Origin: Methanobrevibacter sp.
Lineage (GTDB): Archaea; Methanobacteriota; Methanobacteria; Methanobacteriales; Methanobacteriaceae
DNA: 64,000 nucleotides
Direction: 5' to 3'
Assembly (NCBI RefSeq): GCF_015062935.1
Contig: NZ_SUTM01000001.1
Location: 1-64,000 of the forward strand
The notes below the pieces were generated by a model. The model was given only the letters and a program-made list of their open reading frames with translations. It did not search any database and had not been told where the DNA came from. The position numbers and the translations under genes were made by a program. Below, one piece after another: positions 19,619 through 24,420 of this stretch (position 1 is its first letter; each line of letters opens with the position of its first letter).

Positions 19619-19645
19619 AATAAATTAGCATATTGCTAATTTATT
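19619..19645 (-). terminator. Perfect 12-bp hairpin at the end of dnaJ
   Basis: AATAAATTAGCA (19619-19630) pairs completely with TGCTAATTTATT (19634-19645) over a 3-base loop. It overlaps the dnaJ stop codon and is followed in the minus direction by an A/T tract, so it is a likely terminator for the heat-shock operon. Confidence 0.7.
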
Positions 19646-20786
19646 TCATAGCGTCTTTAACTCTATCGAAGAGTCCTTTTTCAACATGTTTAATTTCATC
19701 ACCGCTGACTTCGGCAAATTCAGTAAGTATCTTTTTCTGTTTTGAACTTAATTTTTTAGGAACAACCACAGTTACAGTAACGTACATATTTCCTCTTCCT
19801 GAATGTCTAACAGAGTTCATTCCCTGACCTTTTAATTTAAATACGGTACCACTTTGTGTTCCTGAAGGTATTTTAAATTCAACTTCTTTTCCTTCAATAG
19901 TAGGAATGCTAATCAAATCACCTAATGCAGCTTGAGGGAAACTAATTTGTTGGTCTAAGTATAAGTGATCGCCTTCACGTGTAAAGTTTCTATGTCCTTT
20001 GATGTGGATTGTAACAATTAAATCTCCTTCAAGTCCTGGTGATTCACCACAGTTTCCTTCACCTGAAACTCTTAAGTGGTTACCTTCATCAACACCTTCT
20101 GGAATTTCAATTTTAATTGTTTTGGATTTTCTTTTACTTCCTTTTCCGTGACAATCATCACAAGGGTCTGTAATTATCTTTCCAGTTCCTCCACACTCTC
20201 TACATGGTCTTACATTTACCATTTGACCTAAAAATGTGTTGCTGACTTCTTTTATTTGTCCAGTACCGCCACATTTAGGACAGGTTTGAGGGTCGGAACC
20301 TGGTTTGGATTTAGAACCGTTACATGTTGGACATAATTCACTTCTGGTAATCTTGATTTCTTTGTCACAACCATTGAATGCTTCTTCTAGAGAAATTGGT
20401 ACTTCAGTGTAAATGTCTGAACCTCTTTGAGGACCTGCTCTTCCTCCACGGCTGCGACCTGGTCCACCGAATCCGAACATTTCAAATATGTTTCCAATAT
20501 CGAATCCTTGGAAAATATCCTCAAAGTTCACGTTTTGATAGAAATCTTCAGCAGTAAATCCATCCATTCCGGCATGACCGAATTGATCATATCTTTGACG
20601 TTTTTCTTCGTCAGACAAGACAGCATAAGCTTCACTTACTTCTTTAAACTTATCTTCAGCATCTGGTTCATCACAAACGTCTGGATGGTATTTTCTGGCT
20701 AATTTACGATAAGCTTTTTTAATAGTCTTTTCATCCGCAGTTTTATCTACTCCAAGAACTTCATAATAATCTCGCTTGTCTGCCAT
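19641..20786 (-). CDS. dnaJ: DnaJ co-chaperone (Hsp40)
   Basis: A 381-residue class I J-protein that stimulates DnaK ATPase and delivers unfolded substrates. The J domain has the essential HPD in KYHPDV, followed by a Gly/Phe-rich region (about 80-130). Four zinc-binding repeats follow ([36 protein letters not shown]), then the C-terminal substrate-binding domains. Length is normal. It lies 124 bases downstream of dnaK and may have its own promoter in that gap. The upstream GGTGAATAA before the ATG supports the start. Methanobacteriales are among the archaea that acquired the bacterial DnaK system. Confidence 0.97.
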
Positions 20787-20910: not shown

Positions 20911-22785
20911 CTAGTCTTTTACTTCATAGTCTGCATCAATTGTGTCATCATCTTTGTTGTCTTGAGCACCTGAGTTAGGGTCAGCTCCTGCTTGTTGTTG
21001 AGCTTGAGCTTCTGCTTGTGCTTGTTGGTAGATTTTTGCACCAATCTCTTGAATTACATTTGATAATTCATCAGACTTTGATTTAATGGCATCAATATCA
21101 TCGCCAGCTATAAGTTCTCTTAATTCAGCTACAAGTCCTTCGACTTTTGATTTTTCATCTTCAGATACTTGATCTTTGAGTTCGTCTAAGGTTTTTTCTG
21201 AAGTGTAAATTAATGAGTCTGCGTTGTTTCTGATTTCGATTTCTTCTTGTCTTTTTGCATCTGCTTCAGCATTCATTTCTGCTTCTTTAACTTTTTGTTC
21301 GATTTCTTCATCAGATAATTTAGTTGAGGAAGTAATGGTAATTGCTTGTTCTTTACCTGTTCCTTTATCTTTTGCAGTTACATTTATAATACCGTTAGCG
21401 TCAATATCGAAGGTTACTTCAATTTGTGGTACTCCTCTTGGTGCAGGTGGGATTCCTACAAGTTGGAAACGTCCGAGTGAAGTGTTGTCTGCAGCCATTT
21501 TTCTTTCCCCTTGCAATACGTTAATGTCTACAGATGGCTGATTATCTGCTGCTGTGGAGAATACTTGACTCTTTTTGGTAGGAATAGTAGTGTTTCTTTC
21601 TATTAATGTAGTTGATACTCCTCCTAAGGTTTCAATACCTAAAGATAATGGAGTTACATCTAAAAGAACGATGTCTTTAATTTCACCAGCTAATACTCCT
21701 CCTTGAATAGCTGCTCCCATGGATACACATTCCATTGGGTCAATACCACGTTCAACTGGTTTTCCTATGAATTTTTCTACGTATTTTTGAACGATTGGCA
21801 TTCTGGTAGGTCCACCAACTAAGATGATTTTATCAATTTCAGCTCTGGTCATTTTAGCATCATCTAATGCTTGTTGCATTGGTTTTCCAGATTTTTCCAC
21901 AATGTGGTCAACTAATTCTTCTAATTTTGCTCGGGTAAGAGAGATGATTAAGTTTTTAGGAGTTCCGTCACTGCCCATTGCGATGAATGGTAAGTTAACT
22001 TCAGTGGTTGTGGTAGTGGATAATTCAATTTTTGCTTTTTCAGCAGCTTCTCTTAATCTTTGTACTGCTTGATCATTATCCATTAAGTCAATACCTTCTT
22101 GTGCTTTGAATTCATCAGCTAAGTATTTGATTAATACGTTATCCATATCGGTACCACCAAGTTGGGTGTCTCCGCTGGTGGATCTTACTTCAAATACTCC
22201 TCCACCGAATTCCATAATGGTTACGTCTAAGGTACCTCCACCTAAATCGTATACCATAATGTTCATGTCATCTTCTTCTGCTTTGTCAAGTCCGTATGCT
22301 AAACTTGCTGCAGTAGGTTCGTTTACGAGCCTTACAACATCGAGACCTGCAATGGTTCCTGCGTCTTTTGTTGCGGTTCTTTGGTTATCGTCAAAGTATG
22401 CTGGTACGGTAATTACAGCTTTTTCGATTGGTTCACCTAAGAAGGTTTCAGCATCTTTTTTAATTTTTTGTAAGATGAATGCAGAGATTTCTTGTGGAGA
22501 ATATTGTTTTCCGTTTACAGTTACTTTGTGATCAGTACCCATGCTTCTTTTGATAGCGCTGATTGTATTTTCTGGGTTGGTAACTGCTTGTCTTCTTGCT
22601 GGTTCTCCAACTAACATTTGACCATCTTCAGTAAATGCAACGTAACTTGGGAAGGATTTACCGTATTGGCTTGCTCCTTCAGCGGAAGGGATTGTAGTTG
22701 GTTTTCCCCCTACAAGCACTGATGCTGCTGAGTTACTTGTACCTAAATCAATTCCAATAATTTTTTCTTTTTTAGTATCAGACAT
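20911..22785 (-). CDS. dnaK: DnaK chaperone (Hsp70)
   Basis: An Hsp70 of 624 residues from ATG 22785, chosen because GGTGATAATT lies directly before it; an upstream in-frame codon at 22794 would fall inside that site. The actin-like ATPase domain shows [47 protein letters not shown] and [12 protein letters not shown]. The substrate-binding domain shows [17 protein letters not shown] and the helical lid follows. The C-terminus is Gln/Ala-rich and ends in an acidic [13 protein letters not shown] tail. It works with GrpE (upstream) and DnaJ (downstream). Confidence 0.98.
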
Positions 22786-22827
22786 AATTATCACCTATTT
22801 TTTTTTCATGAATTATATTAATAAACA

Positions 22828-23379
22828 TTATTTTTTACAAACAATAACTTTTGAGTATTTTAGAACTTTATCCTTATACATGTAGCCTTTCATTAGTTCT
22901 TCAATGACGTAGCCGTTTTCCACATCATCGGATTCCTGTACCATTAATGCTTCATGTTTGTTCAAATCGAATTTTTCACCTTTTGCATGAATTTCTTCAA
23001 CGCCTTCTTTTGTTAATATGTCTTTAAATTTATTGTAGGTAAGTTCTATACCTTCTCTTAAGTTTTTGTCATCTTCAACTTCTAAAGCTCTACCGAAGTC
23101 TTCGTAACAGTCTAAGAATTCTTTGATAATATTTTCATTGGCAAATTTGATAATTTCTTTATTTTGTTTGTCGGTTATTTTTTTGAAATTTTCAAAATCT
23201 GCCTGAAGTCTTTGAGATAGTGAAATGTATTCCTGGGTTTCACTTTCCTGTTTTTCAAGGTCTTCTTTAAGTTTTTCAACTTCTTCATCTTTTTGAGCTA
23301 ACTCTTTGAGAAGCTCCTCATATTTTTCTTGAAGATCTTGTTTGGTTACTTCAGTTTCACTTTTATTTTCGTCAGTCAT
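22828..23379 (-). CDS. grpE: GrpE nucleotide exchange factor
   Basis: A 183-residue protein. The N-terminal half is an acidic, Glu/Lys-rich long coiled coil (about 10-75), then LQADFENFKKITDKQNKE, the typical dimer helix of GrpE. The C-terminal beta domain carries GVEEIHAKGEKFDLNKHEAL and ends in GYMYKDKVLKYSKVIVCKK. It releases ADP from DnaK. It is the first gene of the grpE-dnaK-dnaJ operon, 42 bases before dnaK. The start ATG 23379 is preceded by AGGTGTACAT. Its leader of nearly 190 bases carries striking inverted repeats. Confidence 0.95.
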   Translation of the reverse strand: MTDENKSETEVTKQDLQEKYEELLKELAQKDEEVEKLKEDLEKQESETQEYISLSQRLQADFENFKKITDKQNKEIIKFANENIIKEFLDCYEDFGRALEVEDDKNLREGIELTYNKFKDILTKEGVEEIHAKGEKFDLNKHEALMVQESDDVENGYVIEELMKGYMYKDKVLKYSKVIVCKK

Positions 23380-23402
23380 ATGTACACCTTTTAGGTTTTT
23401 TA

Positions 23403-23597
23403 GAAAAACTTTTGTAATAACTCATTTGGCGAGAAGTCATCAAATTGTTCTTTAATATTGGTTAATGGGAATTTATGGACATATAGGAAAATGGTTCATC
23501 AAATTAGAGTTATTACTTCAAGTTTTTCCGAACCAAATATTAAAGTAACAAAAAGTTATCTTTCTCTTACATTATTATAGTAACAAAAAGTTATATA
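23403..23597 (-). promoter_or_regulatory. grpE promoter, two GTAAC-N5-GTTAT operators and a leader with interleaved inverted repeats
   Basis: Read on the minus strand, a TATA box (TTTATATAA near 23588-23597) should start transcription near 23566. Two identical boxes GTAAC-AAAAA-GTTAT lie at 23545-23559 and 23580-23594, the second over the TATA. They resemble the CTAAC-N5-GTTAG palindrome reported for the Archaeoglobus heat-shock regulator HSR1. In the leader, 23531-23545 is complementary to 23450-23463 (14 pairs, one bulge), and 23507-23528 is complementary to 23403-23423 (19 pairs, small internal loop). The two pairings interleave. The sequences are seen; regulation by repression plus RNA structure is inferred. 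Confidence 0.6.
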
Positions 23598-23844
23598 AAC
23601 CTTTCGATATTCAAAGTGTCAAAAATTTGATATTTTCTTTGCTTAAAATCATTTGATTTTATTATAATTAAATTTATATCATTATTTTTCATATGTTTAT
23701 ATTAAAAAAACTTATTTAATTTTTATATTAGATTTAACATTAACATTAATAAAATAGGCTTCATATATTGGGGTTTTAACTTTTCTTACAATATGTAATA
23801 AAAACATAATGTTTTATATAATATGTTTAATATAATCTATAATC

Positions 23845-24420
23845 ATGACAAACGCAAATGACATTGAAAAAAATGATAAACATCATAGAAATGTCAATTC
23901 TTCTAATGGCCACATAGAAATTAGAGGAAATTACAACGACCAATTAGGAGATATTGATAAAGAAGATATACTTGACGTAATGGGTTGTAAAACAAGAAGA
24001 GATATCATAAATCTCTTAAGGGAAGAGCCGATGTTTGTTAGTGAAATATCTAATGAGCTCGATATTGGTCAGAAGGCTATCATAGAACACTTGCGTGCTA
24101 TGGAAGATATAGGAATTTTGAACTCTTCTTATAAGAAAATCTTAAGAGGTCGTCCGCGTAAATATTATGATTTGCAGCATGAGGTAAATATTCACATTAC
24201 TATTAATAAAAATACTTTTGATGTAAATTTTTCCGACGATATGCTGAATACTTTGCAGTTGCCTTCAGGTGACGAATGGTCAAAACTCTTGGATATCGAA
24301 AAAAGGATTGACGCAGGTCAGCTTGAAGCAATCGATGAGCTAAAAAATCAAATCAGATTATACGGCAATCTCAAGGAAAGAGCAGAATATATTCTTGAGA
24401 GAACTTTAAAAAATAGATAA
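23845..24420 (+). CDS. ArsR-type winged-helix regulator, possible heat-shock regulator
   Basis: A 191-residue DNA-binding protein. After a polar start, a winged helix-turn-helix at about 30-105 shows DVMGCKTRRDIINLLREEP, FVSEISNELDIGQKAIIEHL and the wing RGRPRKYYDL. The C-terminal part (about 150-190) is helical and may dimerise. It is transcribed away from grpE, 465 bases apart, and its sequence type (ArsR-like with an R-G-R-P wing) is like archaeal heat-shock repressors. That makes it a candidate for the factor binding the GTAAC-N5-GTTAT boxes, but no direct evidence links them. A typical GTAAC box was not seen before its own start. Confidence 0.75.
   Translation: MTNANDIEKNDKHHRNVNSSNGHIEIRGNYNDQLGDIDKEDILDVMGCKTRRDIINLLREEPMFVSEISNELDIGQKAIIEHLRAMEDIGILNSSYKKILRGRPRKYYDLQHEVNIHITINKNTFDVNFSDDMLNTLQLPSGDEWSKLLDIEKRIDAGQLEAIDELKNQIRLYGNLKERAEYILERTLKNR

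Follow-up and report, generated by a model that had tools for sequence, protein, structure and literature searches.

The grpE, dnaK, dnaJ operon of this Methanobrevibacter genome is preceded by a leader that contains two long, interleaved inverted repeats, raising the question of whether its RNA forms a structure that contributes to expression of the chaperone genes. An earlier note on the window (the whole stretch of 64,000 nucleotides that was analyzed) had suggested that the repeats form either a pseudoknot or two mutually exclusive helices, possibly as a heat-sensing switch. To our knowledge, little is known about post-transcriptional control of archaeal chaperones, and we know of few structured leaders described in methanogens; a covariation-supported leader of gut methanogens with a single target would represent a concrete RNA for probing.

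Arrangement and predicted fold of the leader

Direct reading of the minus strand placed the four arms where the earlier note had located them, upstream of the grpE ribosome site and the ATG at 23379 (Table 1). The pairings were also as that note described: in s1/s1' (P1), runs of 9 and 10 pairs flank a small internal loop, which has 3 nt on one side and 2 nt on the other, and s2/s2' (P2) has 14 pairs with one bulge. The strands follow one another in the order s2-s1-s2'-s1' and the arms are disjoint, which is the order of an H-type pseudoknot. Based on the spacing of the BRE and TATA elements, the transcript is predicted to start at approximately 23570, upstream of every arm, and the promoter stretch is kept in nearly all of the grpE leaders that were read. 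An ArsR-type regulator gene lies divergent from the operon. Two further features, absent from the earlier note, are a possible third helix (P3) and the nearly invariant core (Table 1).

Table 1. Coordinates of the genes, promoter, operators and predicted RNA elements at the grpE locus, numbered as in the window.
Feature	Position	Strand	Remarks
dnaJ	19641..20786	-	Pfam DnaJ and DnaJ_C
dnaK	20911..22794	-	Pfam HSP70, 5.5e-226
grpE	22828..23379	-	Pfam GrpE, 8.5e-41; ATG 23379-23377
Shine-Dalgarno (SD) of grpE, AAGGTG	23385..23390	-	
P1 3' strand, s1', GAGTTATTACAAAAGTTTTTC	23403..23423	-	covariation, arm-swap test
P3 3' strand, TTCTC	23431..23435	-	kept within otherwise variable spacer
P2 3' strand, s2', AACCAATATTAAAG	23450..23463	-	covariation, pairing tests
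Unpaired core, GAACCATTTTCCTATATGTCCATAAATTCC	23468..23497	-	nearly invariant in genus alignments; between s1 and s2'
P1 5' strand, s1, GAAAAACTTGAAGTAATAACTC	23507..23528	-	covariation, arm-swap test
P2 5' strand, s2, CTTTAATATTTGGTT	23531..23545	-	covariation, pairing tests
Operator 2, ATAAC-TTTTT-GTTAC	23545..23559	-	just after predicted transcript start
Hairpin H1, TAAC/GTTA	23558-23555/23549-23546	-	operator 2 core in RNA
P3 5' strand, GAGAA	23562..23566	-	adjoins predicted mRNA 5' end
Operator 1, ATAAC-TTTTT-GTTAC	23580..23594	-	overlaps TATA box
Promoter, BRE-like CGAAAG + TATA box TTTATATA	23592..23606	-	read directly
ArsR-type (HTH_5) regulator, divergent	23845..24420	+	Pfam HTH_5, 5.1e-14

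The minimum free energy of 23570-23377 was -35.3 kcal/mol (z -3.1), with one of 200 dinucleotide shuffles equally good. Comparative data, described below, rule out a chance origin of the predicted pairings.

Comparative support for the crossing helices

Leaders that contain the 5' anchor together with the core numbered 69 and came from the window's genus (g1), G068 (g3) and G072-G075 (g6). In a model-based alignment of 65 sequences (A4), which was fitted to a model that contained s1, 96.4% of the s1/s1' cells were paired, compared with 38-55% in slid controls, and both-side changes were found in 12 of the 18 pairs (shuffled mean 4.6; none of 500 shuffles reached 12). An alignment-free analysis in which the arms were swapped among 11 lineages gave -23.6 kcal/mol for native and -12.8 kcal/mol for swapped s1/s1' arms (0/20,000 permutations). 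Across the three genera the sequence of s1/s1' has almost wholly changed with the pairing retained; the arms of G066, G068 and G072-G075 are little like those of the window, yet are paired lengthwise. The crossing helix P1 had energies of -25 to -30 kcal/mol in g1, g3 and g6 leaders, versus -8 to -15 kcal/mol in shuffles, and was clear in these three and only hinted at in g9.

The s2/s2' pairing was given a separate test because s2 is partly constrained as promoter/operator DNA; the tandem operators overlap the 5' part of the leader and so account for some of the conservation of s2. A looser first swap test of s2 (684/20,000) was only suggestive, as the whole 3' region had been searched. When only the 36 nt that follow the core were searched, and sequence groupings unlike those of the first test were used, permutation of partners among 12 distinct s2 types gave 1/20,000 (2/20,000 with the variable half taken by itself), and permutation over deep lineages gave 3/20,000 and 0/20,000, although these counts, as well as those for s1/s1', were only partly corrected for shared ancestry. 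In addition, the spacing between the core and the start of s2' is steady, and the pairing of s2' beats shuffled sequence (mean z -3.4). Variants of the helix include GGCT/AGCC in G039, GGGT/GCCC in G061 and TTTTAGTTT/AAACTAAAA in G074.

The short P3 helix reads AAAGAT/ATCTTT in G072-G075, whereas G068 has ATATGAG/CTCATA; by itself it was only modestly supported in the window's genus (median p 0.13). The conserved 5' stretch of the leaders in other genera, GAGAAAGATAACTTTTTGTTACTTTAATA, is able to pair with sequence far downstream, with P3, H1 and P2 as the closing helix. Jointly, P2 and P3 reached z values of about -5 to -9.5 in g9, where H1 recurs in the consensus fold; support for g9 is drawn from between-genus comparison and shuffles, because most P3/H1/P2 pairs are invariant within g9. 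P2 and P3 were also supported in parts of g6, g7, g8 and g11, and were not significant in several g8, g10 and g13 leaders.

Paired changes in relatives, whose absence the earlier note had named as refuting its suggestion, were thus found for both s1/s1' and s2/s2', across three genera. The pseudoknot part of the earlier suggestion is borne out by this covariation, and mutual exclusion of the helices is disfavored by the disjoint arms and by both pairings having been kept. With non-overlapping arms and two retained pairings, the helices are best read as an H-type pseudoknot. The leader RNA is real and conserved, and it is probably pseudoknotted. We infer that both helices form within one molecule; what sequence comparison demonstrates is that both pairings persist.

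Distribution of the element

GrpE was found in 64 of the 67 genomes of the genus. Leader DNA was matched in 113 of the 139 family genomes; within the genus the match covered most of the leader, and in most others it was confined to the promoter part. With a covariance model, 64 of the 139 had the element at grpE, once per genome except for two assemblies that carry a second copy on another contig; one extra, marginal match (G083) lay away from grpE. A pattern for most of the core matched 43 contigs in a collection of named genomes, once in each contig, and every one of these contigs carries the label Methanobrevibacter. The distance from s2 to the end of s1' was 142-149 nt in 45 of 46 representatives, even where the arm sequences differ, and P1 ends 17-25 nt from the ATG in most of the genus and up to 76 nt from it in relatives. 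Taken together, comparative sequence analysis showed conservation of the predicted crossing-helix pairing, the core and the single genomic location.

The grpE leaders of other genera are often 280-450 nt long. Those of g9 (L093, L094, L095, L103, L118 and others) are 374-434 nt and contain two highly conserved stretches, AAATCCTCTTTAAAAATCACACTATAA and a 3' block, GGAGCTTATCGCTCTCTTTCTC; these are perhaps the counterpart of the Methanobrevibacter core.

A second near-copy of the core, with 2 mismatches in 24, was observed between two convergent genes in G046 (contig 77; L220:983-1006), where it directly follows a GGGAGTT/AACTCCC hairpin.

Possible roles of the leader and its operators

The leader is most likely a previously undescribed cis-regulatory RNA that binds a factor or ligand. 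Rfam 15 contained no covariance-model match to it at the gathering score, the text of a survey of 104 motifs mentions neither Methanobrevibacter nor grpE (PMC2864571), and no described leader of a grpE-dnaK-dnaJ operon was found in the openly licensed literature. The explanation that we favor, with some reserve, is a conserved, cis-acting structured and pseudoknotted leader of grpE-dnaK-dnaJ whose core binds a partner and thereby alters expression. P2, extended to the mRNA 5' end by H1 and the short P3, would close a domain, and P3 would bury the first nucleotides of the mRNA. P1 would begin within the P2 domain and end outside it, upstream of the ribosome site, producing a long-looped H-type pseudoknot that displays the 30-nt core as a single strand. 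The near invariance of this core points to a specific, searchable binding partner, likely a protein, metabolite or small RNA, the binding of which may alter survival of the chaperone mRNA or ribosome loading. Heat-shock induction itself would probably occur at the DNA level, through the divergent regulator acting on two operators. More speculatively, and with confidence short of even, the leader may belong to an archaeal cis-regulatory RNA class older than the genus, one combining a pseudoknot, an aptamer-like core and a 5'-end clamp for post-transcriptional control of the Hsp70 operon besides the repressor.

A riboswitch, in which the core and pseudoknot would form an aptamer for a metabolite or ion, is a special case of this explanation and one to which we assign a modest chance. 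The long, near-invariant unpaired core held by covarying helices is aptamer-like, and pseudoknot topology is common to several known aptamers: SAM-II, preQ1-II and SAM/SAH riboswitches have the same crossing topology, covarying stems, a conserved unpaired core and a location in 5' leaders. The leader differs from them in its P1 of about 19 bp, its loops of tens of nucleotides, the lack of an Rfam match at cut-off and its confinement to one chaperone operon. The restriction to a single target gene in each genome and the narrow range of taxa also argue against a riboswitch, chaperone genes give no hint of a ligand, and no expression platform was found, there being no conserved SD pairing and, on inspection, no conserved terminator-like U-run. 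Sub-threshold preQ1-II matches were observed at the 3' ends of g9 leaders (L118:556-640, L094:531-613 and L206:348-430). We rejected preQ1-II identity, as these scores, found in g9 leaders only, were weak (31-32 bits against a cut-off of 47) and the stems of that family are absent.

The proposal of a heat-sensing switch fared less well. In an RNA thermometer the structure would hide the grpE ribosome site and melt on heating. In favor of this, the leader belongs to a heat-shock operon, a short ACCU/AGGU hairpin is able to cover the SD in 39 of the 69 leaders, and a nested fold model predicted partial pairing of the SD, with a mean unpaired value of 0.31 at 37 C. The same hairpin is absent from the other 30, however, so that sequestering of the SD is not conserved across the 69 leaders, and s1' lies anywhere between 17 and 76 nt from the ATG. 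In this fold model, which has no pseudoknot energies, SD exposure was nearly flat, rising from 0.30 (30 C) to 0.36 (50 C), and mean pairing of the s1 arm was 0.67 at 37 C and still 0.54 at 70 C. Pairing of the core with the SD was no better than with shuffled cores, and masking of the SD by s1 or the core was rejected based on this result and the modelled exposure. Heat sensing is therefore unsupported, on account of the lack of conserved SD masking, the near-constant SD exposure and an s1 that is too stable. A simple thermometer also has no need of the near-invariant unpaired core and leaves it unexplained. We consider a thermometer unlikely; its standing was lowered, and only lowered, by the fold results, because the computed energies lack pseudoknot terms. 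Bacterial thermometers of the ROSE, FourU and hsp17 types resemble this leader in being structured 5' leaders of heat-shock genes, but the leader differs from them in lacking conserved SD masking and in having stable helices, a near-invariant unpaired core and a pseudoknot. An RNA thermometer in Methanosarcina mazei, according to the paper the first to be employed in an archaeon (PMC11549558), likewise confers temperature control from a methanogen 5'-UTR, but was designed and is not natural.

Slightly less probable again is that the leader is a stable 5' fragment that functions as an independent small RNA directed at other targets. The self-contained fold with its near-invariant single-stranded stretch and the near-copy of the core between convergent genes in G046 would fit such a role. 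However, the element is always joined directly to grpE, no conserved terminator was seen, and G046 is a single case. Other candidates were rejected. An upstream peptide can be read across the core (ATG AAC CAT TTT CCT ATA TGT CCA TAA), and its being a conserved peptide was discounted because several relatives have lost its start codon, it has no SD and the conservation continues beyond the stop. A C/D-box or K-turn was rejected as UGAUGA is not conserved, as was transcription attenuation, no conserved terminator having been seen in the leaders.

The remaining alternative, that the repeats are regulator binding sites in DNA rather than RNA structure, is very improbable. The leader 5' part does overlap tandem Hsr1-like operators that are conserved across the family, but operators leave unexplained why changes are paired in arms separated by more than 60 nt, and account for neither s1/s1' nor the near-constant element length. 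The two operators lie in a 35-nt tandem direct repeat (23538-23607 in the window), and nowhere else in this genome is the repeat consensus matched perfectly. The HSR1 motif is CTAAC-N5-GTTAG (PMC9133787); ATAAC-N5-GTTAC, present twice here, has the same core, TAAC-N5-GTTA, with different outer letters. The divergent HTH_5 protein is a natural candidate for the heat-shock repressor, and two Hsr1-like operators beside an ArsR-type gene would be a simpler account of heat control than an RNA. HSR1 of Archaeoglobus fulgidus and Phr of Pyrococcus similarly involve an HTH regulator adjoining a heat-shock operon, although their targets are hsp20 and AAA ATPase genes and the target here is an Hsp70 operon; this comparison concerns the DNA layer and not the leader RNA.

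The operator pair was observed to recur at grpE across the family. In G004 (L221) the HTH regulator and grpE are separated by a transposase-like ORF that has a zinc-ribbon CxxC motif, and a TATA box and one operator copy are still beside the regulator. An operator/s2-like sequence, TTACTTTTTATTACTTTAATATTTGTTCG, was also observed in L119 and L120 upstream of an apparent cdc48-type AAA ATPase gene; this site is weak and is orthologous in several genomes.
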